Shown here in pieces: positions 8,573-59,653 of a stretch of DNA of 64,000 nt. A model generated the notes under the pieces. That model made no database searches and was not told where the DNA came from. It was given only the letters and a program-made list of their open reading frames with translations. Source of the DNA: Membranipora membranacea (lineage: Eukaryota > Bryozoa > Gymnolaemata > Cheilostomatida > Membraniporidae); assembly GCA_914767715.1 (NCBI GenBank), contig OU612074.1, positions 10,760,062-10,824,061 of the forward strand. The letters run 5' to 3'. The position numbers and the translations under genes were made by a program. Position 1 is the stretch's first letter; each line of letters begins with the position of its first letter.

Positions 8573-10857
8573 TTAAAAATCATCATAGTCTTCCCATGTT
8601 GAACCTGTGTCCTTGTGCTGGTTGTAACCTGAATCACCCTGTTGGTTTTTCCATAAACTCTGTCTATGGTTGGAGTCATATCCATAAGATTCCAAACTTT
8701 CTCCCTGTCTATCATATTCTGAATGTCCATTCTCTTCCGCTGCTAAATCTTTGCTTGCACCATATCCCCATAGATTTATCCCTTCTCCGCCTTGACTCAT
8801 TTCTTGGCTCCGACCATTTTTCTGAGGTCTCATAACTTCTCCTGTTGGAATCACAATCACATTCACTGGATTCCTCATTCCTCGTCTTCTAGGGGTGTAT
8901 TCCGATTGTCTCACCCCTTCTCCTCTTTGACTTAATCCCCTACTGTGTCCATATCCCCATTCTCTATCTTGTTCCCTGCTTGCACCATATACCCGCTGTC
9001 TCATTTCTCTCCCCTTGCCATGTGTCAAAGGTCTCATAAGCTCTCCTGTTGGCCACAATCTTCTGTTATAGTGATATCCCCTAATTTCTCTACTGTTGTA
9101 ATATCCCCTGCTTCTGATTTCACTCCTCTGGCCATTTTCCCATGGTCTCTTCTCCTCTTCTCTTTGACCAAATCCTCTGCTGTGGCCATATCCATATCCA
9201 TATCCATATTGATCTGCCTCTCTGCTCTCACCAAATCCCCATTGTCTCATTTCTCCCTTCTGACCATACGCCCAGGGTCTCATCTCTTCTCCTCTTTGAT
9301 TTAATCCTCTGCTGTGACCATATCCCCATCTTCTCTTTCCTCCTCTGCTCTCACCATATCCCCATGGTCTAGTTTCTCTCCTGTGGTAATATCCCATGCG
9401 TCTCATCCTCTGGCCATATTCCGATGTTCTCATCCTTTGTCGTCTTTCACTTAAATCTCTCTTGCGGCCATAGCCATATTGCCTTTCTCCCTCTCTGCTC
9501 CCACCATATCCCCATTGTCTCACATCTTCCCTCTGGCCATAACCCCATTGTCTCATATCTTCCCTCTGGCCATATCCCCATCGCCTATCCCATTCTCTGC
9601 TTGCACCATATCGCCGTTGTCTTATTGCTCTCCTCTGGTCATATCCACTCACTTCATCTTCAGTGTCTGAACCATATTCCAATTGACTTTCTCCTTCTCC
9701 TTCCGGACTCAGTTGTAGTGAACTGTCAATTTCCTCTCCTCTGATATCCACTGGATCGATCTCTGAAACAAATTCTCCTCCATTCTCAATTTGAATGATG
9801 TCATCCATCGGATCAGATTGACGTGGAATAAATTCACTCTCATTTTGACCTTCACCTCTTCCGGTTTGGCTTATTTCTTCCCTCTTGTTACCTTTCTCTT
9901 CAAGCTCTTGTTGGTTGAACCCTATCGGGTTCTCTTCTACCTCTGGTGGATTTGAATGGCTACTTGTGGTCCCTTTTATGTCAACACTTTGTGTTATCTG
10001 CTCAATTGGAGCACTTCCTGCATCTGGGGGGCTTATTACTTCACTGGTTGTTTGCTTAATTTCATTTAGTCTTGGCTTCTCAGTCTCTGGATTTCCTTCT
10101 GCTTCTGGTGCACTACGAACGGTACTGGTGATTTCTTTTTGGTCATCCTTTGTTAGTTGAGGCGCTGTTGGCTTATCTTCTTCTTCACCTTCTTGGTCAA
10201 CTGTAATTTCCTCACTGACTTTCACCAGCCCATCATCTTTTGAATTGTTAGCTTCTTGATTTATTTTACCTCCTAGTATAATTAATACTTCATCATTTGT
10301 CACATTTCTGTTATCCACTTTTGGTTTGCCCTCAAGTGTTGCATTCTGTCCTTCTTGTTCTGCTTCTTGCTCTAATCCAGCAATAACATTAGCATTGTTT
10401 ACTGTCTTCACAGTTACCACCGCCAAAACTATACCTAAAGACAAAAATGCATTGTTAGGCTTAGTTAATTTGTTAATGCTCAGACACCAGTAATTGCCTT
10501 CCATGACCAACCTCATCAAATTATGATCATTATAATGGCCAAAGGGATCCCACTTAGTACACACTTTATTTGGTATAAATACAAAACAATGAAAACACAC
10601 TTACCTATTGCGATAGCAAGGAGAAGTATCAATATCAAAAACTTCTTTTCCTTCTGCAATAGGAGACAAGAACTTGTTATGCAACCAAAATTTAGTTATA
10701 TGAATGACGGTTAGCCATGCATATTGCTTGGAGGCAAGAAATGATTAGGTTTTTAACACAGACAAACTCGAAATATGTGCTGCTCTGTTGAAATGGAAAG
10801 GTTAATGAGTGTTGTACTTACTATGCATGGGGTCTTTTCTGTAAGCGAAATGCTCAT
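8573..10857 (-). CDS. Gene A: divergent secreted or signal-anchored acidic/GYR-repeat protein, three coding exons
   Basis: Not a known family to me. Exons inferred from splice sites: 10857-10822 (ATG start, donor GTAAGT), 10653-10605 (acceptor TTGCAG, donor GTAAGT) and 10434-8573 (acceptor CTTTAG, stop TAA). The three pieces join in one frame to 648 residues. Residues 17-37 (FLILILLLAIAIGIVLAVVTV) are a strong hydrophobic segment after a KEKK stretch, so a signal peptide or type II anchor. The next roughly 290 residues are Glu/Gln/Asp-rich with NAT and NVT glycosylation sequons. The C-terminal half is Arg/Gly/Tyr/Trp-rich repeats such as RQWGYGQRED and YGHSRG. It shares exon structure, exon-2 phase 1 and the GYG..RG repeat style with genes B-F but lacks the VDVILRSLKF cassette and RGD. 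Unlike B-F, exon 2 has no ATG, so translation must begin in exon 1. Exon 3 is solid; the first two exons are inferred. Confidence 0.75.
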
Positions 10858-10899
10858 TTCGGCAGCCGGATGTGTGCAAGCATATTTCTACTAGAGCAA

Positions 10900-13800
10900 A
10901 ATAGTTTTTTTACGCGAATGTCTATCAGCTTCAAATACTTGTTTATTGATTATGCCATATTATCCCCAAGATGGAGAGTGACACTAAAGCTTGTGAAACG
11001 ATCGACACATAATAATTATGCAAGATCCATCCAGATGTTTGGCAAACATCTGAACACATATTTCAACCCTGGGGTGTTTAAATGAAAAGTTGTGGCAAGT
11101 TGTACATTGAATGCCTGACCATGCCCAAATTCATGACGCCAGTATCCTAATATTATTGTTACCGATCAGAGTGCCTGGAAACCCCATATCATTTATAAAT
11201 AAACATTAGTTTTTTTGTGTCCTAGGATTGGTTGTTATTAAATTTGACATTTAATGCAAATTGGAGCACAATAGTGAGAGTTGTGATGTCTTCTATGTAA
11301 TGACGGCCAGACGGATAGTGTGTTTGTATAAATTACTATGTTTTAATATAGATATGAGACTTGCAGAAAATGGTGTTACTTATTCGGGCAACAACAGATA
11401 TGCTTTTTTGTTTTACCTAAAGCTAAAAAGCCAAACTTTCTAGCCTTAATTGTGATGCCGAGGCATTTCTTTACCATCTGTTATTTGTATAGTTTCAAGC
11501 CAACCTCTATAAATAAATAAATAAATGAAAACAAAACAAAAGGGTATAATTTGCCAACAGCTGTTTTTACTGATTCATTAATTTACTTGACTTATATGTC
11601 TCCCTACTTTCCCTGTTAGCTCAAATTTAATTTCTGTTCACTATATTTTGATACAGCGGCATCATGATAAAAGCTGTTAGCGGAGTCTTAACACGTATTT
11701 TCTGCCAATGTGTGTATGTTGCTGTCAGGGGATGCCTTTCATGAAATCAGAAATCATCTAGCTTATTACATCCCATCCATTAGATTACTCGATTATTTCC
11801 AGTGGTATTGACATGCTGCACACTCCTGATGTATCTTGGTACTGCGAGGATTAATAGAATGTGAAATAATCTGAGCTTCACAATGGAGTGTCCTTCTTGG
11901 TGTTGGGAGTTATTTAATAGTACAAGTTAAACTCCTGCACTGCGTGGAAAATACCGTAGTAATGTAGCTACACATCTCATCATTATTTTCAGCATTGTTG
12001 TGGATATAATGGATACATTTCCATGATAGTAGAATCACCCTGCAGTGAAATTGATCTATTTACTTTCCTCCTAGTTAGAATATCCATTACATGGTACATA
12101 TGATGTGCAATTGAAGTTTTAGCCTGATTGGGTCAATGAAAACTATAGAAATATTTCTCCAGTTGGTTTATGATTGTAAAGAGACAACAATTGGACCCAA
12201 CTATGAAAGAGAGTCTAAGGTCAGAACAGTATGCAAATTTTGTTAATAGGTCTTTTTTGTGTTTGTTATGACCTGTCAGTGAAACTTGTCTGTTCTGGTT
12301 ATGATTTATCTGCTATGTTGTTTTAGTTTTGGTCATGGTAGATTTTTTTTACTTCCCTAATGCAAATTTTAACTTCCAATAAACAGTGACATGGTATTGG
12401 TTCACTGAACAATAGTTTTCTCTTTAGAGTTTGAAAGATATTTTATCAAATGCCACACAATTTATATCTCGGATATGGCATTTACACCAAGCATCCATAG
12501 ATTTCAGAGCGATTACATGAGCCTGGCAAAATTGAGTGTCAAGTGTAAGCTTTGGTAGCAGATGTCGGCCAGTTGTTATTGAGTTACGATTTATTTATCA
12601 CTTTATGCCACATTGTCTCATTCCATCCATTTTTATGTCAGATAATCACTATGCTGGGGGTACTGGTCAGCTTCAGGGATTGCATTTGTTAGCGATAGCT
12701 GTGCAGCAAGCAGAATTATTAAAATCCACCTATTTGCAAGTAAAAATTTCACCTAACATAAGACACCAAGGTTGTGAAAAAATGACTGTATATAATGGTA
12801 ATTTTTTCAACTAGAATGTAATCATTTGACATCTATTGGTGCCATGATAATAAAACAGACAGATGTCAAGCTGTGTTAAAATCCCATCAAGTTACCAAGC
12901 ATGTTTCAGAACAAAAAGCAAAAAGGGTATGTGAAGAATAGAGGGGCGAACGATATTGACCAGGTAGTAAACTACCATTTATCCATAATGGGTTCACCCT
13001 TCAATGTAACTACTAGTTATATAGATATTCAGGCAGAGAGTCATGATGCTAGCTTTTTCTTTACTTTTTTCTTTGCCTAACCCTGAAAATATGTTAAGAA
13101 TAAACTTACATCTAATACATATTATCTGCAAAACGATCCCTCAATTAACGAAAGCTTTGGACCTTCATAGCAGATGGGTATACAGAACAGTTCTAAATAG
13201 CACCTGCCCATCATTGGTGTTACTGTCCTAAGATGAAATTCAACTCAAACAACTTATGATTTTGCATATTAATGTGTTTTACATAACTACAATTACATCA
13301 TCACAATATTGAGAATTCATTTAGAATTATTGTGAAAGCTCCGTTATGCAATAGTAAAAAAGTGTAAATAATATCTTTGTTCCTCCCGACCTTAGTTTAC
13401 TGAAGATGCACTCTCTAGGCATAATAAATAAACATTTGGCATTGCTCATGGAAAAAGAGGTATTCCCAATTGGTTGATGCTAATTTCATGTCGTCAAGTT
13501 TAATTATATTATACTTTTAATATCATACATAGTGTGAAAACATTCAACATACACATTTAACCAACTTTGGGCAGACAGCATATACTAACTGCCACCTCTG
13601 ATTTTTTTCTTTGTATATACGATGCTATAATAAATGTACATGCATCGGCATCAATGTGTATGCTGTAGGTTATCTAATCATGTTTAGAACAGCAGGGAAA
13701 AAACAATTTGAATCTATATCAAGCCTACTGCACTAGAAACCTCGATAAACCAAGATGAGCTAACTCCAAAATATACAGCATATACAAAAGTATGTCATTA

Positions 13801-14900: not shown

Positions 14901-14904
14901 TAGG

Positions 14905-15160
14905 AGTAGGAGGTGGCTCAGTTGGTTTGAGCGCCGTTCCTTCAGCATGCAAATGTTGAAGGTCGTGGGTTCGAATCCCACTGCAGTCTATCGACTACTG
15001 GGGTTTGGTTGGCCCCCAGATGTGCTCCGACCTGCTTGCAAACTGAGAGCAAATTGGCGCAGACATTGCAGCTTAGCCCCTAAAGCAACTGGTATTTCGC
15101 CGCCCATGCTTCGGGATGTGGCGTGTGATATGACATCTGGTTTAAATCAACCTTTTTTAA
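14905..15160 (+). mobile_element. tRNA-derived SINE
   Basis: The head has a Pol III A box TGGCTCAGTTGG (14914-14925) and B box GGTTCGAATCC (14968-14978). A D-arm (GCTC/GAGC) and a perfect T-arm (GTGGG/CCCAC) can be folded. The acceptor stem does not pair, so this is not a working tRNA. A roughly 150-base unrelated body follows and ends near a T-run. Only one copy is evident in the window. Confidence 0.7.
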
Positions 15161-19006: not shown

Positions 19007-20176
19007 TAATTGTAAGGCCATAGTGTATGAAGTATGTGGTCAATTTATTTTTCTATTCTCATCAGGCACTATCAGTTCTTGATAGCTTTGTTTGTTGCAA
19101 AGTCATCACTATCTTTTCATGTTGTGAAACTTTCTAGAACCAGTCTGTGACCCAAAAGTGAATTCAATGAGACAAAATGCTAGCAAGTGGCAAATAAACA
19201 ATAAACATCCTATATGGTGGATATCTGGCAACTTGTCATCAAATTAATTTTTTTTCACTGCGTATGCATTTTATAGCAATTTTAAGTAAATGATTTCAAC
19301 TGCAATGCTACACATAACAATAAAAATTGTTGTTAGTAGTTTAGTAAAAGTGGAGAAAAACATCAGGGAATGTTTCGGGTATGTTAGACATAATGTAAAT
19401 GGTGCAATATGATCAAGTGCAAGCGTATTTGTAGTCAAATCAAATAGTCTCTGTACCCACCAATGATGCAGGATAATCATTAACTCTGTTAGTGTGCAAC
19501 AGTTTCATAACCACACCTACTCAAGAGCCAATATTTATATCCACAAATACATTTTATTTCTGTAGGTAGTTCCAATTTTAACATTAATGCCAGGCCATTC
19601 AAGTTACAGTTATAAGTATGTATGTAAATGATCCATTATACTGTTGGCTCTATGGTTTGTTATCAATCTTAGTTTTTAAGATTTCTCTTCCATGGCTAAT
19701 TAATTACATCTTGCACATCTCAGCTACGTTAGGCTATTCAACTGACATCTACCACTGTCTGTTCCCATGTCCAACATAAAAATTGTGATAATATGTGGGT
19801 CAGACAGACTGCAATCCAAATATTAATTGTTCAGCATATCAATGCCCCAAAATACATTAGGAGCTATAGCTAAAAATCAATAATAAATGGCTACATAACG
19901 TCATGAGCTAAACCTCGCAAAGCGTCCCCATTTATATTTATGAATCTAAAATGAGAATGATGAAAAAATATTAAATGAACTGCTACGAATAGCTGTTTAA
20001 TGGTTGTGTCATATGAAAAAAAGTCATCATACATTAGCAGTGGTGATCTCACAAATATTAATTTCCGTTGTGCAGTTGCAACTGATAGTGTCAAACCTCT
20101 TGTGTAAGGCCATTTGTCACAATCAAAATGTCACTGTTGATTGTCATTGAACCATGGAACATTGCTTTGATGCACC

Positions 20177-20258
20177 TATAAAAGCATTTGGATTCACAAG
20201 ACAATCACATCTGAGCCTTTGGTGACAAGTTCTCAACAGGAAAAAGAATTTCAAAGTA
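20177..20258 (+). promoter_or_regulatory. Gene B TATA box and non-coding exon 1
   Basis: TATAAAAG at 20177-20184. The probable transcript start is about 30 bases later, with the exon 1 end at 20258 before GTAAGTAAAA. The upstream 70 bases (TTGTCACAATCAAAATGTCACTG...) are conserved in genes C and D. The next acceptor is at 20461-20470 (CCTGTTACAG). Confidence 0.75.
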
Positions 20259-20473: not shown

Positions 20474-21830
20474 ATGCAGAGGCTGATAATCTCACTTCTC
20501 TTCACAACTGTCATTGGTAAGTTTTTTTGCACTTTTCATCCTAAATTTTGAGTTTGATGTTGGGGTTTATGTATTTGCTAGCCTCATATCCCTACTTCCA
20601 TGTTGGCAAAAATACATGGCTCGAGGGATTGCGATGGTATATGCATTGGGAAGAGAAAACTGGTGTCTGATAAAGATCCAAAGTAATAGAAAGTGCATTG
20701 CAAAATATATATACATGTGAAAGATATGTTTTGTATGTTAAGGTCTATGTTTGGCCCATGGAAGATATGATGAGGACGAAGGAATGATGCAACAGGGTTA
20801 TGGCGGAGACAAGAAAATGAGTCAAAGAGGAGAAGAAATGAGTCCAAGAAGACAAGAAAAGGAAGGATTTGGGGATGGCAAGGACCGAGAAATGAGCAAA
20901 GGGCAAAGAGGAGATGGCATGAGAGGAGACGGTCAGGATTCAGAAATGGGTCCAAGAGAACAGAGAATGGAAGGATTTGGAGATGGCCAGGGCAGAGAGA
21001 TGAGGAAAAGAGGAGATGGAATGAGACAGTATGAAAGTCCAAGCAGAGGAATGGGCTCAAGAAGACAAGAGGAAAGAAGTTCCATGAAACATGGCATGAG
21101 AGGATTTGGAAACAGCCAAGGCAGAGGAATGAGTTCCAGAGGAAAGAGCATGAGAGGATTTGGAAATGGAGGCGGAAGAATGCAGTCAAGAGGACAAGGA
21201 ATGAGAGGATTCAGAAACGGCCCTAGCAGAGGTATGAAACCACAAAGAAAACCAAAAAGACAATTAAAAAGCAGAGTAGATGTGATCCTGCGTTCTCTTA
21301 AATTTATAACAGGCAGCAGCAAGAAAAATAGATCAAGAGGACAAGGAATGAGAAGAACTGGACATGGCCAGGGAGGTATGAGTTCAAGAGGACAAGGAAT
21401 GAGATCATATGGATACGGCCCAAGTAGAGGAATGGGACAGAGAGGAAAAGGTATGAGATCATACGGATATGGCCCAAGTAGAGGAATGGGACAGAGAGGA
21501 AAAGGTATGAGATCATACGGATATGGCCCAAGTAGAGGAATGAGACAGAGAGGACAAGGTATGAGATCATATGGATATGGCCCAAGCAGAGGAATGGGTC
21601 CAAGAGGAGGCATGAATGGGTTCAGATATGGGTCAAGCAGAGGAATGCAGTCAGGCAGAAGATCACAAAAGAAATTGAAAAGCAGAGTAGATGTTATTTT
21701 GCGTTCTCTCAAATTCAAAGGTGGCCGAAGCAAGGGATATAGAACAAGAGGACACGGAATGAGAGGAAAGAAAGGAAACAAGGGACATAAGAAACAAATT
21801 CTCCGCTATGTAAAGATGGGATTGTACTAA
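20474..21830 (+). CDS. Gene B: secreted Gly/Arg/Met-rich repeat protein with RGD motifs and two VDVILRSLKF cassettes
   Basis: Family not recognised; probably novel. Coding exons are 20474-20516 (MQRLIISLLFTTVIG, donor GTAAGT) and 20743-21830 (acceptor GTTAAG), joined in phase 1, giving 376 residues. A signal peptide ends in GLCLA, followed by an acidic HGRYDEDEG mature start. Then come a Gly/Asp/Glu/Arg region with one 34-residue repeat (20910-21011) and three RGD tripeptides, and Gly-Met-Arg repeats. A first KSRVDVILRSLKF cassette (about 21270-21305) is followed by four 18-residue units built on MRSYGYGPSRGMGQR. A second cassette (about 21676-21717) leads into a Lys-rich tail ending ILRYVKMGLY. 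Arg is mostly AGA and Gly mostly GGA, so the sense strand is purine-rich. Closest relative is gene C, which has more repeat units. A secreted, strongly cationic, possibly processed effector or matrix protein is inferred. Confidence 0.85.
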
Positions 21831-22510: not shown

Positions 22511-23866
22511 TTTCTAGGGTAAAAAAGTGTGCTGAATCCAAAAATGAGGGTGTACCCGGTTGTAGCGGTCATCGTCAGCGGCAGCGTGGCAGTATATGGC
22601 AGCATATCACAAATTTTCAATAAATCGCTTTTAGTTAGTAAAGATTGTAGTGTTTGTTACAGCCAACAGAGAACAAGAATATATCTGTTTCTAGGGTAAA
22701 AAAGTGTGCTGAATCCAAAAATGTGGGTGTACCCGGTTGTATTGGTCATTGTCAGCGCCATCTTTTACAAATTCCTATTTAGTTAGTTAAAATTGTAGTG
22801 TTTGATACAGTCAACGGTCAACAGAGAACAAGAATAATATGTTTCTAGGGTAAAAAAGTGTGCTGAATCCAAAAATGAGGGTGTACTCGGTTGTAGCGGT
22901 CATCATCAGCGGCAGCGTGGCAGTATATGGCAGCATATCACAAATTTTCACTAAATCGCATTTAGTAAGTAAAGATTTTAGTGTTTGTTACAGCCAACAG
23001 AGAACAAGAATATATCTGTTTCTAGGGTAAAAAAGGGTGCTAAATTCAAAAATGAGGGTGTACCCAGTTGTATCAGTCATTGTCAATGGCAGCGTGGGCG
23101 CGAATCTGACTTTTTTTTACAAATTCGCTTCTACTTAGTGAAAATTGTGGCATTTGATACAGTCAACGGTCAACAGAGAACAAGATTAATATGTTTCTAG
23201 TGTAAAAAAGTGTGCTGAATCCAAAAATGAGGGTGTACCTGGTTGTAGGGGTCATCATCAGCGGCAGCGTGGCAGTATATGGCAGCATGTCCCAAAATTT
23301 TCAACCAAGCGCTTTTAGTTAGTGAATATTTTAGTGTTTGATACAGCCAACAGAGAACAAGAATATATATGTTTCTATGGTAAAAAAGGGTGCTGAATTC
23401 AAAAATGAGGGTGTACCCAGTTGTATCAGTCATTGTCAGCGGCAGCGTGGGAGCAAATCCGACTTTTTTTTACAAATTCACTTCTACTTAGTGAAAATTG
23501 TGGCATTTGATACAGTCCACGGTCAACAGAGAACAAGATTAATATGCTTCTAGTGTAAAAAATTGTGCTGAATCCAAAAATTAGGGTGTTCCCGGTTATA
23601 GTGGTCATCATCAGCGGCAGCGTGGCAGTATATGACAGCATATCCCAAATTATTCAATAAAGAGCTTTAAGTTAGTGAAGATTTTAGTGTTCGATACAGG
23701 CAACAGAGAACGAGAATATAAATGTTTCTAGGGTAAAAAAGGGTGCTGAATTAACAAATAAGGGTGTACCCGGTTGTATCAGTCATTGTCAGCGGCAGCA
23801 TCTCACAAATTTTTCACAAAATCACTTTTAGTTAGTGAAAATTGTAGTATTTTTTGTTACAGTCAA
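22511..23866 (+). repeat. 176-bp tandem repeat, eight units in alternating dimers
   Basis: Units begin with TTTCTAGGGTAAAAAAG-like sequence at about 22511, 22688, 22842, 23019, 23194, 23372, 23547 and 23724. Spacing is 175-178, except one unit of 154. Odd units contain GGCAGTATATGGCAGCAT; even units contain TCAGTCATTGTCA and mostly a T-run before ACAAATTC. The result is a roughly 352-base higher-order dimer. Short ORFs inside it are artefacts of the repeat. Confidence 0.85.
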
Positions 23867-23886: not shown

Positions 23887-26387
23887 TCACTCATTTTCCT
23901 CATCCTCATCATCCTCGTCTCCGCCAGCCTCCTCCTCCTCCTCATCAAGACTGTTCTCTCTGAAAGCTGTATTTGCAGCTTGCTTCAAAGCAAGTGCTGT
24001 TTCAAGCCTAATAATTGAGTCATAGCTGCAAGAATGACCAACTCCATGAATAAGTTTGGCTAGCAATTTAGACCCAGTCATATGCCTCACTGTTAGGCCG
24101 ATGGCTAAAGACTTTGGAGTAACAGCAGCACCTTTGGAGCGTAGCTGAACAATGTCTTGGGCTAAGCTGAGAATCTTTAGGCGAACAGAGGCGTCCAAAT
24201 TATAGTAGGTGTTCCAGTCACAGACCACATCAGCATGACCTGTCGTCATAGCTAGAAAATTAAATAGTGGTGGTGGAACAAATTCGACACAGGCCTCAGC
24301 GTTAAGGTTGTCTGCAGTAGGTGGCCAGGGGATCTCAACTTTTTTGGTTTGATCTATATACAAACAGAGTGAAATTGCTGCCTGATTGAGTTGATATTGA
24401 TTGGATTGGGTTACACTATTGAAAGGGATTTCCTCATCACATGAGCTGGCAGTGTCGACCTCGCTCAAGAGGCTGGATGTGTTTGTGAGTACTGATGTAT
24501 CAGTCACTAAATCAGTCAAAACTGCATTGCTGCTCGTCACTATATCACCATGGGAGGGATCAGAGGCTTGATGAAAACTAAGGCGGCCTTTAAATTCTCT
24601 CTTCAGGCGGTAGACAAAAGCTTTGCGGCTGTAAAAAGATGATATTTTTGTCTTGAAGCACAATACATGTTAGTCCGAGGAAGAAAAAGATTTTGACATA
24701 ACTTTTCATATCTTTTTAATTAATCCTAATCTAACAAGGCCAAAGTTTGATCAATGCATTTGAGTGTTCTCAAAACCGCAGGTTGATAATGCTTGCACAA
24801 TGCAACTTCAACCTGGGAACCCCAGTCTCGCAAGATTTTATCGCCCTGATCTCACTGGGAATTCCAGGAAATTGCATTATGGGAAACTAGTATATATAAA
24901 TATATATCATAGTCTTACCTGGTCTCATATTATCTGTTATCTCTACGTAGTTTATTATATAAGCCAAGTAAATCAGATACAGTGTAAGAACCCTTCTCGC
25001 GCTCTATCTTTGAGCTAACCAGGTCCTCAAGTTGTCGCCATGATGCAGATCTCACAAAGTGAGCTTTTGATTTAGATCTAAAACAATTGGTATAACAATT
25101 TTACAGCACTTCATATGAACTCATCTCTACGCCCAAGTGAACTTGTTAACAATTTTCAAAGAGGGACAGCATAGGAATGTAACACACATAATGTTGAGCC
25201 AGACAAATGACAATGATAAGTGGCAAACAGATTTTATAGTTTTTACCTGAGCTGGTTCGTAACAGTTGCGATATAATTCTTGTGGCATGCACGATGATAT
25301 CTCATTTCACGGACAACAGGATCTCCTAACTGAAAACATGACAACAGCTTTGTGTCATTCTTGGCTTCTGCGGCAGGAAGTAAACCCCCTAAATAGAAGG
25401 ATAATATTTTTGAAAGCTGGCTCTCTCACTGATATATCATTTGTCTCCAGATAGTTATGGTTGATGCAGCTTAGATCATACAACACATGTAATTGAAAAA
25501 GTTCCCTCAATTAATCAACAATTCAACCCTACAGAGTCTGCAGAAGGCAGAATAAAACCTGAGATTATGATGTCGCAATTTATTGTACTTACCAGCATCT
25601 AAAGTCTCAGCTCTAGAGGTCGGTAGTTTCTTGCGGTTTTTGTACTTCTCCTTATTACATATGACACAGGTAGAAGAGAATGTCTGAGGCTTACTAGTAC
25701 TCGGTTCTGAAGACCTGAGTTTCTTTGGGCTCGGCAAATTGGCTCCATCCTCATTCTTAAAAGCAGGAAATTATTAGAGCAGGGTTAATGAGTAGCAATT
25801 ACAAGGGTCAATCAATCAAGACTGAAAAAAATCGAAGGCATCTCAGATTTTCCAACTATGATTTAATTCAGTGTTGTGATCATTCGATGATAAATATTAG
25901 AGTTCTATCAAGGAGCTTTTACTCCTTGATAGAACTCTCTTATTTATCACAGAATGATCTTCTTGGCCCAAACACTATCTCTGAATGAGAGCAACGTCAA
26001 ACAAAGTTTCATATCGGTTCAAACAAAGCAACACAAGGTGGTCTTCCATACAGCACCGTGGTCATCAATTAATACCTTGAGAGTAAATCCTGAATCATGA
26101 GCATGTTCTATACATACCTTTCTCTTCATTGCACTTTCCTTGGCTCCTTCTAGCTTGGATTTAGAAAATCTGAACATACAAAGACGATGGTATTTATAGG
26201 TACTACATTCATCCATTGTCATTGTCAATAGATTTTTGGCAATGAAGCATTCCGGCTCTTTCCCAGTTTTCACCCACTCTTTAGCCACATATTTGAGTTC
26301 AGCAAGCTTTGAGGCTGACAAAACAACACTCTCGGCTGCTTCATCTACTTTCTCATAGTGGATAATACACTCCATAATGTTAGTCAA
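23887..26387 (-). pseudogene. Five-exon element-encoded gene with zinc-finger-like motifs, one in-frame nonsense codon
   Basis: Exons inferred on the minus strand: 26387-26118, 25755-25593, 25388-25247, 25077-24919 and 24628-23887. All have GT-AG borders and compatible phases (0,1,2,2), giving 491 residues apart from one TAA at 24932-24930 in exon 4. Exon 1 has a YHRLCMFRF motif. Exons 2-3 carry CVICNKEKYKNRKK then YHRACHKNYI, so a CxxC...HxxC zinc-binding pattern is likely and may be duplicated. Exon 5 contains FVPPPLFNFLA and LTVRHMTGSKLLAKLIHGVGH and ends in a long Glu/Asp run. From memory, similar uncharacterised proteins are expanded in marine invertebrates, but I cannot name the family. 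It lies inside the inverted-terminus insertion, so it is probably element-encoded. A start upstream of 26387 is possible. AATAAA lies just past the stop (23880-23875). Confidence 0.65.
25879..25959. repeat. 81-base hairpin inside the element gene intron
   Basis: A perfect 17-base stem, AGAGTTCTATCAAGGAG (25899-25915) against 25922-25938, with a six-base loop. It extends imperfectly to GATCATTC/GAATGATC at the outer ends. It lies in intron 1 of the five-exon gene. Confidence 0.85.
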
Positions 26388-27087: not shown

Positions 27088-27337
27088 TACCCATACCCGT
27101 ACCCTTACCCGTACCCGTACCCGTACCCGTACCCGTACCCGTACCCGTACCCGTACCCGTACCCGTAACCGTACCCGTACCCGTACCCGTACCCGTACCC
27201 GTACCCGTACCCGTACCCGTACCCGTACCCGTACCCGTAACCGTACCCGTACCCGTACCCGTAACCGTACCCGTACCCGTACCCGTACCCGTACCCGTAC
27301 CCGTACCCGTACCCGTACCCATACCCGTACCCATACC
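27088..27337. repeat. Hexanucleotide array (CCCGTA)n
   Basis: About 42 units of CCCGTA with a few CCGTAA interruptions and CCCATA at both edges. It sits at the position equivalent to 39403-39925 in block 2. Long ORFs across it are repeat artefacts. Confidence 0.95.
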
Positions 27338-36651: not shown

Positions 36652-38539
36652 ATGCAGAGGCTGATAATCGCACTTCTCTTCACAACCGTCATTGGTAAGT
36701 TATTTTACACTTTTCGTCCTAAATTTTGAGTTTGATGTTGGGGTTTAAGTATTTGCTAGCCTCATATCCCTACTTCCATGTTGGCACAAATACATGGCTC
36801 GAGGGATTGCAATGGTATATGCATTGGGAAGAGAAAACTGGTGTCTGATAAAGATCCAAAGTAATAGAAAGTGAATTGCAAAATATATATACATGTGAAA
36901 GATATGTTCTGTATGTTAAGGTCTATGTTTGGCCAATGGAAGTCATGATGAGGACGAAGGAATGGTGCAACAGGGTTATGGCGGAGACATGAAAATGGGT
37001 CAAAGAGGAGAGGAAATGAGTCCAAGAAGACAGGAAAAGGAAGGATTTGGAGATGGCCAGGACCGAGAAATGAGCAAAGGGCAAAGAGGAGATGGCATGA
37101 GAGGAGACGGTCAGGATTCAGAAATGGGTCCAAGAGAACAGAGAATGGAAGGATTTGGAGATGGCCAGGGCAGAGAGATGAGGCAAAGAGGAGATGGCAT
37201 GAGAGAAGACGGTCAGGATTCAGATATGGGTCCGAGAGAACAGAGAATGGAAGGATTTGGAGATGGCAAGGACCGAGAAATGAAGCAAAGAGGAGATGGC
37301 ATGAGAGGAGACGGTCAGGATTCAGATATGGGTCCAAGAGAACAGAGAATGGAAGGATTTGGAGATGGCAAGGGCCGAGAAATGAAGCAAAGAGGAGATG
37401 GCATGAGAGGAGACGGTCAGGATTCAGATATGGGTCCAAGAGAACAGAGAATGGAAGGATTTGGAGATGGCCAGGGTAGAGAGATGAGGCAAAGAGGAGA
37501 TGAAATGAGACAGTATGAAAGCCCAAGCAGAGGAATGGGCTCAAGAAGACAAGAGGAAAGAAGTTCCATGAAACATGGCATGAGAGGATTTGGAAACAGC
37601 CAAGGCAGAGGAATGAGTTCCGGAGGACAGAGCATGAGAGGATTTGGAAATGGAGGGGGAAAAATGCAGTCAAGAGGACAAGGAATGAGAGGATTCAGAA
37701 ATGGCCCTAGCAGAGGTATGAAAGCACAAAGAAAACCAAAAAGACAATTAAAAAGCAGAGTAGATGTGATCCTGCGTTCTCTTAAATTTATAACAGGCAG
37801 CAGCAAGAAAAATAGATCAAGAGGACAAGGAATGAGAAGAACTGGACATGGCCAGGGAGGTATGAGTTCAAGAGGACAAGGAATGAGATCATATGGATAT
37901 GGCCCAAGTAGAGGAATGGGACAGAAAGGAAAAGGTATGAGATCATACGGATATGGCCCAAGCAGAGGAATGGGACAGAGAGGACAAGGTATGAGATCAT
38001 ATGGATATGGCCCAAGCAGAGGAATGGGTCCAAGAGGAGGCATGAATGGGTTCAGATATGGGTCAAGCAGAGGAATGCAGTCAGGCAGAAGATCACAAAA
38101 GAAATTGAAAAGCAGAGTAGATGTTATTTTGCGTTCTCTCAAATTCAAAGGTGGCCGAAGCAAGGGATATAGAACAAGAGGACAAGGAATGAGAGGGTTC
38201 GGATATGGTCAAGGTAGAGGAATGAGCACAAGGGGAGAAGAGATGAGATCATACGGATATGGCCCAAGTAAAGGAATGGGACAGAGAGGACAAGGTAGGA
38301 GATCATACGGATATGGCTCAAGCAGAGGAATGCAGTCAGGCAGAAGATCACAAAAGAAATTGAAAAGCAGAGTAGATGTCATTTTGCGTTCTCTCAAATT
38401 CAAAGGTGGCCGAAGCAAGGGATATAGAACAAGAGGACAGGGAATGAGAGGAAGAGGATATGGGCCAATGAAAGGAAAGAAAGGAAACAAGGGACATAAG
38501 AAACAAATTCTCCGCTATATAAAGATGGGATTGTACTAA
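36652..38539 (+). CDS. Gene C: secreted Gly/Arg/Met-rich protein, eight RGD motifs, three VDVILRSLKF cassettes
   Basis: Coding exons are 36652-36694 (MQRLIIALLFTTVIG) and 36921-38539, joined in phase 1, giving 553 residues. The signal peptide ends in GLCLA, then ANGSHDEDEG opens the mature protein. A 34-residue unit is repeated exactly four times (37088-37495, 102 bases each) and supplies most of eight RGD tripeptides. Next come Gly/Met/Arg repeats and three KSRVDVILRSLKF cassettes (start near 37752, 38108 and 38365). Between the cassettes lie 17-18-residue YGYGPSRGM units, with a duplicated cassette-plus-SKGYRTRG segment. The C-terminus is ILRYIKMGLY, as in gene B. The coding DNA is near-identical to B outside the repeat-number differences, so the pair is young. 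Function unknown; strongly basic and secreted. Confidence 0.87.
37088..37495 (+). repeat. Four 102-bp coding repeats in gene C
   Basis: Four exact-length units encode a 34-residue repeat starting GDGMRGDGQDS and ending in MKQR or MRQR. Gene B has one unit (20910-21011) and gene D three (42469-42774). Confidence 0.9.
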
Positions 38540-39402: not shown

Positions 39403-39925
<523 letters not shown>

Positions 39926-41433: not shown

Positions 41434-43207
41434 TTAGTACAATATCATCTTTGTATAGATAACAGCCTTCTTTTGTTCCTTGTTTACTTTCTTTCCTTTT
41501 TTGGTCTCTTTAGGTTCTGATGACTCCTCACTTGATCCAGATGCTCCCATACCTTGTCCTCTCTGTCCCATTCCTCTGCTTGGGCCATGTCCAGATTCTC
41601 CCACTCCTTGTCCTCTTTGTCCCATTCCTCTGCTTTGGCCATGTCCATATGATCTCATACCTTGTCCTATTTGTCCCATTCCTCTACTTTGGCCATGTCC
41701 ATATTCTCCCATACTGCGTCCTCTTTGTCCCATTCCTCTGCTTGGGCCATGTCCAGACTCTCCCACTCCTTGTCCTCTTTGTCCCATTCCTCTGCTTTGG
41801 CCATGTCCATATGATCTCATACCTTGTCCTATTTGTCCCATTCCTCTACTTGGGCCATGTCCAGAGTCTCCCATACCGCGTCCCCTTTGTCCCGTTCCTC
41901 TGCTTTGGCCATGTCCATATGATCTCATACTTTTTCCTCTCTGTCCCATTCCTCTACTTGGGCCATGTCCAGATTCTCTCATATCTTGTCCTCTTTGTCC
42001 CATTCCTCTACTTGGGCCATGTCCAGATTCTCCCATACCGCGTCCTCTTTGTCCCGTTCCTCTGATTGGGCCATATCCATATGATCTCATTCCTTGTCCT
42101 CTTGAACTCATGCCTCCCTGGCCATGTCCAGTTCTTCTCATTCCGTGTCCTCTTGATCTATTTTTCTTGCTGCTGCCTGTTATAAATTTAAGAGAACGCA
42201 GGATCACATCTACTCTGCTTTTTAATTGTCTTTTTGGTTTCCTTTGTGGTTTCATACCTCTGCTAGGGCCATTTCTGAATCCTTGTCCTCTTGACTGCAT
42301 TCTTCCGCCTCCATTTCCAAATCCTCTCATGCTCTGTCCTCTGGAACTAATTTTTCTGCCTTGAATGTTTACAAATCCTCTCATGCCATGTTTCATGGAA
42401 CTTCTTTCCTCTTGTCTTCTTGAGCCCATTCCTCTGCTTGGGCTTTCATACTGTCTCATTTCATCTCCTCTTTGCCTCATCTCTCTACCCTGGCCATTTC
42501 CAAATCCTTCCATTCTCATTTCTCTTGGACCCATATCTGAATCCTGACCGTCTCCTCTCATGCCATCTCCTCTTTGCCTCGTTTCTCGGTCCTTGCCTCC
42601 TCCAAATCCTTCCATTCTCTGTTCTCTTGGACCCATATCTGAATCCTGACCGTCTCCTCTCATGCCATCTCCTCTTTGCCTCATCTCTCTGCCCTGGCCA
42701 TCTTCAAATCCTTCAATTCTCTGTTCTCTTGGACCCATTTTTGAATCCTGACCGTCTCCTCTCATGCCATCTCCTCTTTGCCCTTTGCTCATTTCTCGGT
42801 CCTGGCCTTCTCCAAAACCTTCCTTTTCCTGTCTTCTTGGACTCATTTCTTCTCCTCTTTGACCCATTCTCTTGTCTCCGCCATAACCCTGTTGCATCAT
42901 TCCTTCGTCCTCATCATGACTTCCATGGGCTAAACATAGACCTTAACATACAAAACATATCTTTCACATGTATATATTTTGCAATGCACTTTCTATTACT
43001 TTGGATCTTTATCAGACACCAGTTTTCTCTTCCCAATGCATATACCATCGCAATCCCTCGAGCCATGTATTTGTGCCAACATGGAAGTAGGGATATGAGG
43101 CTAACAAATACCTAAACCCCAACATCAAACTAAAAATTTAGGACAAAAGTGTAAAAAAACTTACCAATGACGGTTGTGAAGAGAAGTGTGATTATCAGCC
43201 TCTGCAT
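41434..43207 (-). CDS. Gene D: secreted Gly/Arg/Met-rich protein, His-containing repeats, seven RGD motifs, one cassette
   Basis: Coding exons are 43207-43165 (MQRLIITLLFTTVIG) and 42941-41434, joined in phase 1, giving 516 residues. The signal peptide ends in GLCLA and the mature start is HGSHDEDEG. Three 34-residue units (42774-42469) supply most of seven RGD tripeptides. One KSRVDVILRSLKF cassette (about 42220-42180) is followed by about ten 18-residue units in which YGYGPSRGM is replaced by SGHGPSRGM or YGHGQSRGM. This part is therefore His-rich, unlike B and C. The C-terminus is Ser/Glu/Lys-rich and ends VIYTKMILY. It is inverted relative to B and C. Its TATA box reads TATTAAAG, one base off the family form. 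Function unknown. Confidence 0.86.
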
Positions 43208-43423: not shown

Positions 43424-43505
43424 TACTTTAAAACTCTTTTTCCTGTTGAGAACCTCTCACCAAAGGCTCAGATGTGATTGTCTTGTGAATCCAAATGCTT
43501 TAATA
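43424..43505 (-). promoter_or_regulatory. Gene D variant TATA box and non-coding exon 1
   Basis: TATTAAAG at 43505-43498, where genes B and C have TATAAAAG. Exon 1 ends at 43424 before GTAAGTAAAA. The signal-peptide exon begins at 43210 after a CTGTTACAG acceptor. Confidence 0.7.
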
Positions 43506-43509
43506 GGTG

Positions 43510-48856: not shown

Positions 48857-49198
48857 TTATAACAATCCCATCTTAATATAAGGGAGAACATGCTTATGTC
48901 CCTTGTTTCCTCTCATTGACCCATATCTTCCTCCTCTTGGTCTCATTCCTCTGTCTTGGCCGTATCCGTATGGTCTCCTCTCTTCTCCCCTTGTGCTCAT
49001 ACCTCTACCCTGACCATATCCGAACCCTCTCATTCCTTGTCCTCTTGTTCTATATCCCTTGCTTCGGCCACCCTTGAATTTAAGAGAACGCAAAATAACA
49101 TCTACTCTGCTTTTCAATTTCTTTTGTGATCTTCTGCCTGACTGCATTCCTCTGCTTGAGCCATATCTGAATCCTCTCATGTCTCCTCTTGGACTCAT
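48857..49198 (-). pseudogene. 3' part of gene E cut off by a frameshift
   Basis: Continues the gene E protein in another frame. It has an RGD-bearing SPRGDMRGFRYGSSRGM segment, a KSRVDVILRSLKF cassette, SKGYRTRGQGMRGFGYGQ and a tail ending HVLPYIKMGLL, matching the ends of B, C and F. The frame is lost at 49211-49217, where CAGATAATTGCCC replaces the usual CAGATATGGCCC. That is a net one-base insertion creating TAA. Confidence 0.75.
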
Positions 49199-49214
49199 TC
49201 CTCTGCTTGGGCAA

Positions 49215-50410
49215 TTATCTGAATCCTCTCATACCTCCTCTTGAACTCATTCCTCTGCTTGGGCCATATCTGAATCCTCTCATGCCCCCTCTTGAACTCA
49301 TTCCTCTGCTTGGGCCATATCTGAATCCTCTCATACCCCCTCTTAGACCCATTCCTCTGCTTGGGCCATATCTGAATCCTCCCATGCCCCCTCTTGAACT
49401 CACTCCTCTGCGTGATCTCTTGCCAGTCTTAAACTTGAGAGAGCGCAGGATCACATCTACTCTGCTTTTCAATTTCTTTTGTGATCTTCTGCCTGACTGC
49501 ATTCCTCTGCTTGAGCCATATCTGAATCCTCTCATGTCTCCTCTTGGACTCATTCCTCTGCTTGGGCCATATCTGAATCCTCTCATGTCTCCTCTTGGAC
49601 TCATTCCTCTGCTTGGGCCATATCTGAATCCTCCCATGCCCCCTCTTGAACTCACTCCTCTGCGTGATCTCTTGCCAGTCTTAAACTTGAGAGAGCGCAG
49701 GATCACATCTACTCTGCTTTTCAATTTCTTTTGTGATCTTCTGCCTGACTGCATTCCTCTGCTTGGGCCATATCTGAATCCTCTCATGTCTCCTCTTGGA
49801 CTCATTCCTCTGCTTGGGCCATATCTGAATCCTCTCATACCTCCTCTTGGACCCATTCCTCTGCTTGGGCCATATCTGAATCCTCTCATACCCCCTCTTG
49901 GACTCATTCCTCTGCTTGATCTCCTACCAGTCTTAAATTTGAGAGATCGCAGGATCAAATCTACTCTGCTTTTCAATTTTCTTTGGGGTTTTCTGCCTGA
50001 CTGCATTCCTCTGCTTGGGCCATATCTGAACCCTCTCATGCCTCCTCTTGGACTCGTTCCTCTGCTTGGGCCATATCTAGCTTCTCTCATCTCTCCTCCA
50101 CTTGGACCCCATTGCCCCATTCTTCCTTCATCATCATCATTCAGCCTTCCTCCGGCCAAACATACACCTAAATAAATAATAAAAAAGTTTATGAAAATAA
50201 AAAAATCTAAACAATCACCAAAATATTAACCATTGCTATAGCAGATTTGCTGCAACATCACAATCTGATGTCTCTTCATAGAATCACATTTGTGAAAGCA
50301 ACAACTTTGATGTTGTTATCACATATTAAATCCGATTGAGAAATATATTTGGAGAGCTGAAACTCACCGATGACGGTTGCGAAGAGAAATGTTATAGTCA
50401 GGCTCTGCAT
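49215..50410 (-). CDS. Gene E: secreted GFRYGPSRGM-repeat protein, prematurely stopped
   Basis: Coding exons are 50410-50368 (MQSLTITFLFATVIG, donor GTGAGT) and 50167-49215, joined in phase 1, giving 331 residues before TAA. The signal peptide ends in GVCLA, then GGRLNDDDEG. The body is 17-residue units of GMRGFRYGPSRGMSPR type, with three cassettes (one reads KSRVDLILRSLKF, two KSRVDVILRSLKF) and three RGD tripeptides in SPRGDMRGF. A one-base insertion at 49211-49217 ends the frame; the remainder is at 49198-48857. It could be a young pseudogene, a working truncated gene or a sequencing error. Closest relative is gene F, in the opposite arm of the palindrome. Intron 1 holds a (GT)n run. Confidence 0.8.
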
Positions 50411-50529: not shown

Positions 50530-50592
50530 ATTTATCAAACGCTAAAATGATTGATATACTAAGTTTTAATAGTAACACAATATTTTACTCAC

Positions 50593-50666: not shown

Positions 50667-50669
50667 GGA

Positions 50670-51960: not shown

Positions 51961-51977
51961 ACTTTAAAAAATAAGAT

Positions 51978-52690
51978 ATGGTATATGGAGGAGATACTTC
52001 AATGATAGTGGAGGACCTTGATACTTGTGTCTACACTGATAGCTCCTCTCATGGTCTTGGTGTGGAAACTGGTATATTCATCCAACAAACACAAAAGGAA
52101 TCATATGGCCGAGCTTATACTGAAGAGGAAATCGCAATCTCACTTAATCAAATTGTAAAAAGATCACAAGCAGAGATTACTGAAATTTCAATAGCTGCCA
52201 TTGTTCTTGAATGTTCCAGGAAAAAATACATATCACAGACAGTTTCTCTTCACTACAGTCCTTTCAAAACCCTGAAGTTAGAATGAGAACCAAACGCGAA
52301 TGCATACACAACTTAAATACGCTTGAAAAGGGTAACTCAATAACTCTTAACTGGGTCCCTGGCCACTATGGGTTCACTAGTAAGTGTGCTAATGAGCTTT
52401 CCCTCGGAGGTGCGCCCCTATTGTTCAAAGAGTCATAGAAAGCAAAAGAACTAGCTATCAGCATTTGAAGAATGGTGGTTAAACTCCAAAAAATCAATGG
52501 TCAAATATACAAGCCCGTGTGGCAACTCAAAAGGCCACTTCTGTCGTATGTTGTAAATACTATCACAATTCACTCTCACAGTTTCAATCGAATGGATATC
52601 CTTGACGAGTCATCCTGTCTTAAATGCAGAGCGATAACAGATTCAAATTATTCACTATGTTTTTGACTGCCAAAACTACACAAAAATTAG
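51978..52690 (+). mobile_element. Non-LTR retrotransposon RNase H remnant (left arm)
   Basis: VYTDSSSHGLGVETGIFI matches the first catalytic region of retroelement RNase H (TD-S-..G.G). AEITEIS.AA and LNWVPGHYGFTSKCANELS match later RNase H motifs. A trailing SCLKCRAITDSNYSLCFDC resembles the post-RNase H Cys motif. Frames are broken at about 52286 and 52437. No reverse transcriptase part is seen. Confidence 0.7.
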
Positions 52691-52699
52691 AAAAATATA

Positions 52700-56049: not shown

Positions 56050-56755
56050 TTTTTGAGTAGTTTTGGCAGTCAAAAACCAAGTGAATAATTTGAATCTGTT
56101 ATCGCTCTGCATTTAAGACAGATGACTCGCCAAGGATATCCATTCGATTGAAACTGTGATAGTGAACTGTGATAGTATTACGACAGAAGTGGCCTTTTGA
56201 GTTGCCACACGGGCTTGTATATTTGACCATTGATTTTTTGGAGTTTAACCACTTATCTTCACATGCTGATAGCTAGTTCTTTGGCTTTTTATGAATCTTT
56301 GAACGATAGGGGCGCACCGCCGAGGGAAAGCTCATTAGCACACATACCAGTGAAGCCATAGTGGCCAGCGACCCAGTTAAGAGTGATTGATTTACCCTTT
56401 TTAAGCGTATTTGAGTTGTGTATGCATTCGCGTTTGGTTCTCATTCTAACTTAATGCTTTTGAAAGGACTGTAGTGAAGAGAGACTGTCTGTGATATGTG
56501 TTTATTCCTGGAACATTCAAGAACCATGGCAGCTATTGAAATTTCAGTAATCTCTGCTTGTGATCTTTTTACAATTTGATTAAGTGAGATTGCGATTTCC
56601 TTCTCAATGTAAGCTCGGCCATATGATTCCTTTTGTGTTTGTTGGATGAATATACCAGTTTCAACACCAAGACCAAGAGAGGAGCTATCAGTGTAGAGAC
56701 AAGTATCAAGGTCTTCCAATATCATTGAAATGTCTCCTCTATATACCATATCTTA
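56050..56755 (-). mobile_element. Non-LTR retrotransposon RNase H remnant (right arm)
   Basis: Inverted twin of 51978-52690: LYTDSSSLGLGVETGIFI then AEITEISIAAMVLE, followed by a decayed GHYGF..KCANELS segment. Frames are broken. Confidence 0.7.
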
Positions 56756-58541
56756 TGTTCTAAAGTTTTGCTTAGGAATTTCGTCAATAATGGGTAAAAG
56801 CATCTGTTTCTCCTCAATCTGTACTCCATCTCTAACATTGACATTTAAAGACATTATTTACTAAAATATCGTGTCATAATTTCAATAAAACTGTCTTAAT
56901 AATCACTGGCAATGACATCATACGATCACATGATTATAACGTTCTTTTTAAATGTCCATCCTCCAGCGATACCCTCGATACCAAAAATTAATTGACACAA
57001 AAGGCCTTGGGCCTACATACACTGTGACTGCCTGAACAGCCGCTGACCTGTGATGGCAAGCAAACTAAGTAATAAGTATATCCACTAAAAACAGACAAAT
57101 CATACATTTTTCCTTTACCCTTACTGATAGCAAATCCTGTCCGCTGAATTTTCTAGTAGCCCCTTCAATTCGGGTACTTTGGCTTGGATCCATGGTTCTC
57201 AATCAGTGCCCTATACTCTTATATGCCAGAGTTCTGTCTCCTCTTCTGATTGAAAATGCAGAGGGGGTCACTTTGCTGGATATTGGTTGTGCAATGGCGT
57301 GACTATACTCCATCAAGGGTTAACCAGGGGATGGCAATTTCTAATTTATTCATGATCTGTACTACTCACCCTTGTAACATTTATTATTTGTCAATCTTGA
57401 ATAATCTCGGCATTGAATAAGAGTGATGACAATGATTGATGGCCAAAAGTAACTAAGCAATGCCAAGATCTTATGTAGTTGAGAATTTCTGCATTTCTGA
57501 ATATCTCCATTGTTGATCATAGTCCCAAAAAAAAGCTTGCAGGTAAAAAGCCAAATGAATTATTTTAGCAAATTGTGAGCATATAACTCCAAATTTATAC
57601 AGCCCATTGTTTTTTATATGAGTTTGAATCCTCATGAAAAGTATATAAAAGTGGTTCAATAATGTGAGTGGCACTTAGGTGAGTTGGGGGAGTCTATTTT
57701 ACACACCCATGCAGAAAACTTCATTCAGTCAAATGAATTTAAGCTTTATATATACCACTTTCCCATCCCCCTATCAATCCTTGACCCAGTATAGGACACA
57801 TGGTAGGCTGGTACCAAATCAAGAATATCTGGCAGAACCGGGAACTGGACTCAGATCTTTTTGCCACAACACTTCACCCTTAACTTTCAGACCACCTCTG
57901 TCACCCCTCTGGGTAACATTCAGAGGTTAATCCAGAAACAATTCTTAAAACTCCTTGAGGTAAAGACACAGGGGTCAGGAAAGGAAGACTTGATGTACAA
58001 TGTTATACAGCGGAGGGAACAGGAACAGAAAGGAACAACGTTATTTGAAACTTAATAGAAACAGAAAAGGTTCTATGAGGCATTGCTGTGCGCGCGAATC
58101 TGTGTATGTAAGTAATGAACATGTAGTTCTATTGAATATATAACAAAACACTGTCATGTACTGTACTACAAGATCCTGAGAAATAGAAAGATCCACAAAA
58201 TTTATATTGCATTGCACTTTAGGAGTTCGACTACGAGGAATGAACATATACTACATACATTGATTGAAGCTCTGAGTATGAGATTTTGAATTGACAATTA
58301 TGGCTATCATACTTCAATTTAGCAATCATGCAATAAAACTTTAAAAATTTAAGTTGAGAAGCCAATTTACATTTTACAACGCTGTTTTTGTTTGTCAATG
58401 TCTTATTCATACATCAGAACATAGCCACAACTCTAATCTCTCTTACATCTATCTTCATTGACAGATCAAACATACAGTGCCACATCTCATGATGAACCGA
58501 TCAATCATCATCAATGCCTTGTTAATTCAAGCCACTGCTCC

Positions 58542-58615
58542 TATAAAACCCTTTTGCTCAGCTAACTATCAGACACAGAGAAAGAAGTTCCCAACAAGAA
58601 AAGACCCTGACCACA
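58542..58615 (+). promoter_or_regulatory. Gene F TATA box and non-coding exon 1
   Basis: TATAAAAC at 58542-58549; exon 1 ends at 58615 (CCACA|GTGAGT). Confidence 0.75.
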
Positions 58616-58776
58616 GTGAGTAAAATATTGTGTTACCATTAAAACTTAGTATATTATATATCAATCATTTTAGCGTTTGATAAATCTCACATACACACAC
58701 ATACTTATATTCGATCGTTTCAATAGAAGCTAAGAACTTCACTTTTACGGCATTTTTCTTCCCTCTGTTACAGATC

Positions 58777-59653
58777 ATGCAGAGCCTGACCATAACATTT
58801 CTCTTCGCAACCGTCATCGGTGAGTTTTAGCTCTCCAAATATATTTCTCAATCGGATTTAATATGTGATAACAACATCAAATTTGTTGCTTCCACCAATG
58901 TGATTCTATGAAGAGACTTCAGATTGCAATGTTGCAGCAAATCTGCTATAGCAATGGTCTATATTTTGGTGATTGTTTATATTTTTTTATTTTCATATAA
59001 ATTTCTATTATTTGTTTTTAGGCGTATGTTTGGCCGGAGGAAGGTTGAATGATGATGATGAAGGAAGAATGGGGCAATGGGGTCCAAGTGGAGGAGAGAT
59101 GAGAGAAGCTAGATATGGCCCAAGCAGAGGAATGAGTCCAAGAGGAGGCATGAGAGGATTCAGATATGGCCCAAGCAGAGGAATGCAGTCAGGCAGAAAA
59201 CCCCAAAGAAAATTGAAGAGCAGAATTGATATGAACCTGCGCTCTCTCAAATTTAAGACTGGTGGGAGATCAAGCAGAGGAATGAGATCAAGAGGGGGTA
59301 TGAGAGGATTCAGATATGGCCCAAGCAGAGGAATGGGTCTGAGAGGAGGTATGAGAGGATTCAGATATGGCCCAAGCAGAGGAATGAGTCCAAGAGGGGG
59401 CATGAGAGGATTCAGATATGGCCCAAGCAGAGAAATGCAGTCAGGTAGAAAACCACAAAGAAAATTGAAAAGCAGAGTAGATGTTATCTTGCGTTCTCTT
59501 AAATTCAAGGGTCGCCGAAGCAGAGGATATAGCACAAGAGGATATGGATATGGCAGAGACAGAAGAATGGGACCAAGAGGAAGAAGATATGGCTCAAAGA
59601 AGGGAAACAAGGGACATAAGGATGTTCTTCGTTATATAAAGATGGGATTGTAA
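58777..59653 (+). CDS. Gene F: short secreted GFRYGPSRGM-repeat protein with two cassettes
   Basis: Coding exons are 58777-58819 (MQSLTITFLFATVIG, donor GTGAGT) and 59022-59653 (acceptor TTTTTAG), joined in phase 1, giving 224 residues. The signal peptide ends in GVCLA and GGRLNDDDEG begins the mature chain. Two to three GMRGFRYGPSRGM units precede and separate two cassettes, KSRIDMNLRSLKF (altered) and KSRVDVILRSLKF. Then comes a Tyr/Gly/Arg stretch and a tail ending VLRYIKMGL. It has no RGD, since the SPRGD of gene E is SPRGG here. It is the shortest family member and an intact counterpart of E in the palindrome. Strongly basic; function unknown. Confidence 0.87.

Follow-up and report, generated by a model that had tools for sequence, protein, structure and literature searches.

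The closest described counterparts of the genes reported here are the SpTrf genes of sea urchins (formerly Sp185/333). SpTrf genes have two exons, the first of which, 51 or 54 nt long, codes for the leader (PMC8634487). The published account of the family describes a histidine-rich region and flanking GA repeats, and states that searches had found Trf genes only in euechinoids (PMC5491942). Here, six genes, A to F, were analysed in a window of DNA, meaning the whole stretch of 64,000 nucleotides (GC content 0.372, CpG observed/expected ratio 0.415). Judged from their sequence, A–F are a real cluster of related secreted-protein genes, partly damaged in that E is frameshifted. Genes B–F contain copies of a 14-residue segment, referred to below as the cassette.

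Gene layout and coding evidence

In all six genes a short 5' exon precedes a signal-peptide exon with a phase-1 end, and the remainder of the protein is coded by one further exon (Table 1). With the exons rebuilt from the window, GT-AG splice sites and phase-1 joins were found at the exon boundaries, and exon 3 was open in B, C, D and F; joining exon 2 to exon 3 gives products of 376 (B), 553 (C), 516 (D) and 224 (F) residues. Gene E has a normal start and a stop after 331 residues, owing to a one-base insertion near 49217, and its other frame is open from 49228 to the tail LPYIKMGLL. TATA-like elements lie 237-349 bp upstream of the ATG in 5/5 of B–F, and a poly(A) signal, AATAAA or ATTAAA, lies less than 400 bp past the stop, again in 5/5. 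The TATA-like element is CCTATAAAA in B, C, E and F and CCTATTAAA in D, so that D may differ in expression.

Since long antisense open reading frames (ORFs) in the window are likewise open, ORF length alone is weak evidence of coding. Between exons 3 of B and C, 6/6 indels are in frame. Across four gene pairs the count is 19/27, with the E frameshift included and with ambiguous alignment of the B–D and C–D repeats, and in the non-coding DNA of the same four pairs it is 8/41. A tblastn search of the window, with queries that were effectively B–F, found no further family member outside the six gene intervals at an E-value of 1e-3 or better. At 60212-60238 on the minus strand there is a 27-base match to the exon-3 repeats (88.9% identity, 36.5 bits); none of the 5244 overlapping 65-base tiles from outside the genes gave a better one. 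The matching bases, after which comes a splice-donor-like GTAAG, are probably a relic of another gene copy.

A preliminary description of this DNA had proposed a six-member family of secreted, repeat-built, cationic proteins with one architecture. The family itself was borne out, with the qualifications that A apparently starts in exon 1 and that E is interrupted. Exon 2 does code for the signal peptide and end in phase 1, its coding part in B–F being 43 nt, enough for 14 residues and one further base, and the acidic motif expected after the signal peptide is present as YDEDEG or HDEDEG in B–D and as NDDDEG in E–F. The placing of the whole mature protein in exon 3 stands for B, C, D and F, where that exon is open; in E the exon is broken by the one-base frameshift. 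Similarly, the KMGL-type tail attributed to B–F is diverged in D (AVIYTKMILY), and A has no such tail. The secreted (by signal peptide), repeat-built and cationic character applies to B–F, but A is acidic overall.

The model of gene A, read by eye, gives 648 residues. The ATG at 10857 is the only one found to join exon 2 in frame; another ATG, used as the start by an automatic model, was rejected, its product being only 33 residues. The phase-1 end of exon 2 in A cuts the signal peptide where it does in B–F (..IG|xxLA), and A also resembles B–F in its style of repeat. Mature A has a pI of 5.25 and a net charge of -21, with most 40-residue bins of its C-terminal half positive, and no RGD was seen in the translation read by eye. 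The last 364 residues of A matched B–F with 96.3 bits, compared with at most 60.1 bits for residue shuffles (n=40) and at most 71.2 bits for shuffles of three-residue blocks (n=40). Gene A is taken as a distant relative of B–F because this score exceeds those of all shuffles and because the intron position is common to both.

Table 1. Positions of the features of genes A–F in the window
Feature	Positions	Strand	Remarks
Gene A exon 1, coding part	10822..10857	-	proposed start ATG at 10857; read by eye
Gene A exon 2	10605..10653	-	hydrophobic signal or anchor segment, ends phase 1; read by eye
Gene A exon 3	8573..10434	-	N-terminal half acidic, C-terminal half GYG/Arg-rich, no cassette
Gene B TATA-like element	20175..20183	+	CCTATAAAA
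Gene B exon 1, non-coding	20205..20258	+	putative; start guessed ~30 bp past TATA-like element
Gene B exon 2, coding part	20474..20516	+	
Gene B exon 3	20743..21830	+	
Cassette B-1	21264..21305	+	
Cassette B-2	21675..21716	+	
Gene C exon 2, coding part	36652..36694	+	
Gene C exon 3	36921..38539	+	
Cassette C-1	37748..37789	+	
Cassette C-2	38105..38146	+	
Cassette C-3	38360..38401	+	
Gene D TATA-like element	43499-43507	-	CCTATTAAA
Gene D exon 2, coding part	43165..43207	-	
Gene D exon 3	41434..42941	-	3' end from lineage other than B/C
Cassette D-1	42184..42225	-	sole cassette of D
Gene E exon 2, coding part	50368..50410	-	
Gene E exon 3	48857..50167	-	one-base frameshift near 49217
Cassette E-1	49935..49976	-	
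Cassette E-2	49683..49724	-	
Cassette E-3	49431..49472	-	
Cassette E-4	49076..49117	-	downstream of frameshift
C-like stretch of E	48978..49207	-	219/230 positions identical to C
Gene F exon 2, coding part	58777..58819	+	
Gene F exon 3	59022..59653	+	
Cassette F-1	59213..59254	+	variant LKSRIDMNLRSLKF
Cassette F-2	59465..59506	+	

The predicted proteins and their cassette

Mature B–F are rich in Gly (22-26%), Arg (14.5-21.5%), Met and Ser, with 19-28% Lys+Arg, a pI of 11.2-12.0 and a net charge of +43 to +72, the composition, pI and charge of E being those of the part before the frameshift. In mature B, C, D and F, and in E before the frameshift, hydrophobic residues (AVILFW) make up 6-12% and Cys is absent, although there is one Cys in the piece of E past the frameshift when it is read from the start of its own ORF. 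B, C, D, F and E before the frameshift have 16-36 RG and 0-8 RGG. Charge in B–D runs from a slightly negative N-terminus to strongly positive, more weakly so in D. The RGD motif occurs 3 times in B, 8 in C, 7 in D and 3 in E, with 1 more past the frameshift, and is absent from F (0); shuffle means were 0.18-1.11, shuffles of B and E reached 4, and the counts are inflated by repeat duplication. AlphaFold predicted low-confidence disorder for F alone (mean pLDDT 50.4), with helices of at least 4 residues at model residues 68-72 in cassette 1, at 151-158 in cassette 2 and at 196-207 in the tail. When a six-row alignment was supplied (pLDDT 46.6), only the helices at 151-158 and 202-206 were predicted, and none in cassette 1.

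The cassette, LKSRVDVILRSLKF, is present in 12 copies in B–F (two in B, three in C, one in D, three in E plus one past the frameshift, and two in F). These copies comprise 8 DNA versions and only 3 protein versions: 10/12 are identical as protein, and the remaining two are LKSRVDLILRSLKF and LKSRIDMNLRSLKF. When all 14-mers of B–F were scored, the 12 copies reached 53-64 and the next best 15. No decayed copy was found among them, and with nothing between 15 and 53 the cassette is either whole or absent. In A it is absent, the best 14-mer scoring 8 against a shuffle 95% level of 18; a candidate decayed copy at MRNPVNVIVIPTGE was rejected, with a score of 7 that lies within the shuffle range. 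The proposal that the tail is half a cassette was also discarded, with scores of 14 in B, 15 in C and lower elsewhere, none above the shuffle 95% level. A clear amphipathic helix was likewise rejected, the helical moment being matched by 30% of shuffles; the strand moment was reached by 7%, a share that drops to 2% when the cassette is extended by one residue at each end.

Pooled over its copies, the cassette has a pS of 0.435 and a pN of 0.022, giving an omega of ~0.035 (0.049 over distinct DNA). Omega is 0.457 for the flank, i.e. the 12 residues preceding each cassette, and 0.44 for 29 spacer units (0.34 over distinct DNA); these units were chosen by pattern, so that those too diverged to match were dropped and spacer change is understated. 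With each distinct change counted once, the cassette has undergone 12 synonymous and 4 nonsynonymous events over 10.0 S and 32.0 N sites, a departure from neutral site counts at P = 2e-5. The corresponding events were 7 and 11 in the flank (P = 0.056) and 8 and 14 in the spacers (P = 0.062), and Fisher tests separated the cassette from the spacers (P = 0.025) and from the flank (P = 0.045). Apparent change is lowered by exchange between the copies, which are not independent of one another, though the spacers undergo the same exchange. Selection guards the cassette far more than the repeats, and this purifying selection is strong. That the cassette is near-unchanged in five of the six genes while the rest varies points to it as the candidate working part of the proteins. 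The label 'fast-evolving', given to the family earlier, is apt for repeat number and spacers, which do change, but not for the cassette, and no omega exceeds 1: whole-CDS pairs gave 0.31-0.74, and omega was <1 in every comparison. Whole-CDS dS was higher than intron divergence, probably because repeats are misaligned or exchanged, and the dS values were not relied on.

Duplication and exchange between genes

B, C and D arose by recent duplication, with D inverted, and are 94-97% identical in upstream DNA, in the stretch from promoter to intron 1 and in intron 2. The second pair is E and F, with 92-98% identity in the stretch from promoter through exon 1 to intron 1, in exon 2 and in intron 2, and 85% in the 3' stretch; further upstream, a gapped alignment gives 73%, though BLAST blocks there reach 92%. 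Between the groups, the similarity of B to F is only 43-56% upstream and in the introns; it is 63% for the 3' stretch and 80% (37/46) for exon 2. In exon 3, B, C and D share with E and F many stretches that are 75-86% alike.

E and D are read as mosaics produced by gene conversion or unequal crossing-over. Outside the C-like stretch of E (Table 1), the introns of E and C can no longer be aligned, and matches between the two genes fall to 78/145 in intron 2, 118/238 from promoter to intron 1 and 135/246 past the stop. Part of the stretch is also 91-93% like F, and a 75-nt window around 49042-48968 is 95% like C and 63% like F. The aligned stretch begins ~10 bases from the frameshift of E. In D, the 5' part is B/C-like, exon 3 opening with three 75-nt windows at 92-99%; past the stop, D matches B at 125/225 positions and C at 129/225, compared with 256/272 between B and C, and where BLAST finds D and C to match briefly, at the end of the gene, identity is 75%.

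Other repeats are present around the genes. Hexamer arrays, (TACCCG)n at 27088-27337 and (CATACC)n at 39403-39845, lie downstream of B and C in the duplicated flanks, and at 22763-23799 there is a tandem array of 2.9 copies of a 353-base unit (91% matches), alternatively described by a 175-base unit. The inverted flanks of E and F carry two similar open frames of 103 residues at 51975-52283 (plus strand) and 56444-56752 (minus strand). At 23890-24669 on the minus strand lies an open frame of 260 residues whose C-terminus is acidic and which is possibly derived from a mobile element. An RNase H-like fragment at 61313-61804 on the plus strand (26.4 bits against a Pfam cut-off of 25.8) is probably derived from a retroelement.

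Possible function and relation to described systems

Searches with the family in Pfam, NCBIfam, PDB and prokaryotic and viral contigs returned no confirmed match. Seven pieces covering A–F had no Pfam match at the curated cut-off (best E 0.056), F, C and A had none in NCBIfam at cut-off, and neither F nor the A1 profile had a match in PDB. There were 0 matches to Rfam at the gathering score and 0 genes found by ARAGORN with the bacterial code. With gene C, 13 stretches of prokaryotic genome contigs and 1 of viral contigs matched a pattern, none of which was confirmed. Peptide strings of the family had no match in the text of papers, a result of little weight since sequences are rarely given there.

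What the sequence shows of the cluster is its gene layout, repeats, cassette conservation, duplication and exon mosaicism. B–F are predicted to code for secreted, largely disordered, strongly positive repeat proteins, with A as a more distant and overall acidic relative. The reading we prefer, held with just under even confidence, is that B–F may act as extracellular polycations that bind through their cassettes, recombination tuning how many of these each protein has. The Gly/Arg/Met/Tyr repeats would serve as flexible, charged spacers and would bind extracellular polyanions, candidates being mucins, sulphated sugars, microbial surfaces and nucleic acid. The cassette and the tail would be the specific sticky parts, gaining order once bound, and the RGD of B–E an attachment point for cells. 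Unequal exchange would then alter the number of cassettes per protein, which is 1 to 3 in the intact members, so that valency is tuned with the cassette unchanged. The single cassette and diverged tail of D, the lack of RGD in F and the low confidence of the structure models count against this polycation reading. A role in matrix, mucus or adhesion is somewhat likelier than one in defence, and the two may overlap. A more specific proposal, which we consider somewhat unlikely, is that of a lineage-specific secreted family with one 14-residue segment, unlike any described module, as the conserved active unit, present in varying numbers on a freely reshuffled cationic scaffold, recombination tuning valency and not specificity.

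A rival explanation is that these proteins are immune effectors that work like sea-urchin Transformer proteins, i.e. secreted, disordered, binding microbes and membranes and diversified by recombination. Such effectors are suggested by the cluster's use of both strands, its segmental duplicates and mosaic exons, and by the Gly-rich composition and the RGD of B–E, all in keeping with the Trf features published (PMC5491942), yet the genes have three exons and no His-rich region. Omega stays below 1 in every comparison, and to have one segment conserved above all others is the reverse of what an arms race would be expected to leave; on balance this explanation is unlikely. It might well be, at distinctly less than an even chance, that there is nothing unusual about A–F, and that databases of the phylum already list them as a lineage-specific secreted family of uncharacterised or glycine-rich proteins, which would be compatible with any of the mechanisms discussed for secreted proteins; low-complexity secreted matrix proteins have been reported in invertebrate shell (PMC6003135). 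That the open frames are a by-product of purine-rich repeats, with no functional proteins, could be argued from the long open antisense frames and the broken E, but is highly improbable in view of the omega of the cassette and its departure from neutrality, the conserved splice sites, TATA-like and poly(A) elements, and the in-frame indels between B and C.

Neuropeptide and antimicrobial-peptide precursors contain repeated identical peptides that are cut out. The cassettes might be released by cleavage in the same way, being a conserved repeated peptide amid looser spacers with a basic pair directly before it in 12/12 copies (KK in 6, RK in 3, KR-Q in 3) and GKR or GRR within 5 residues after it in 4/12. 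However, 8/12 copies have no GKR or GRR after them (3 of these have KK further on), basic pairs are common at this Lys+Arg content, the copies are not independent, and no R-x-[KR]-R site was found in B, C or D, which leaves a precursor quite improbable. If instead the polycation reading is true, the cluster would add to the animal gene systems that share the construction of the sea-urchin Transformer genes, with a separate leader and one recombining repeat exon, but with a single short module conserved while its copy number varies. It would allow a direct test of whether such repeat families evolve valency rather than sequence diversity, and the cassette could be used to look for relatives in eukaryotic data and would suit binding assays as a small, clean target.

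Among described proteins, intracellular RGG/RG-rich phase-separating domains (PMC6065366) are similar in their Arg-Gly with Tyr/Phe spacing, but B–F have a signal peptide and no Pfam domain at cut-off. Low-complexity matrix proteins of mollusc shell (PMC6003135) include disordered, secreted, tandem-repeat and Gly-rich ones, in one case Gly- and Met-rich; the comparison is by description only, and the passages on these proteins describe no such cassette. The 185/333-like layout suggested at the outset stands in part. Compared with the published description of SpTrf, there are three exons in place of two, the second with 43 coding nt in B–F, and His content is 1.4, 0.7, 2.8, 0.0 and 0.5% in B, C, D, E (before the frameshift) and F, as opposed to a histidine-rich region. 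The short-unit arrays (score at least 50) consist of TA, GT, TACCCG, CATACC and units of at least 12 bases, and include no flanking GA repeats. The near-invariant 14-residue cassette and the KMGL-type tail are further points of difference, and the passages on 185/333 mention no cassette of this sort. Because of the exon number and the lack of a His-rich region and of GA repeats, the cluster is not filed under SpTrf, a separation that is drawn from published descriptions. Nevertheless, A–F resemble the Trf genes, and may work like them, in that both form clusters on both strands with segmental duplicates and a leader apart from a single repeat-built exon, and both have disorder (predicted here), mosaic exons, Gly-rich sequence (22-26% Gly in B–F) and the RGD of most SpTrf members, which is found here in B–E (PMC5491942).
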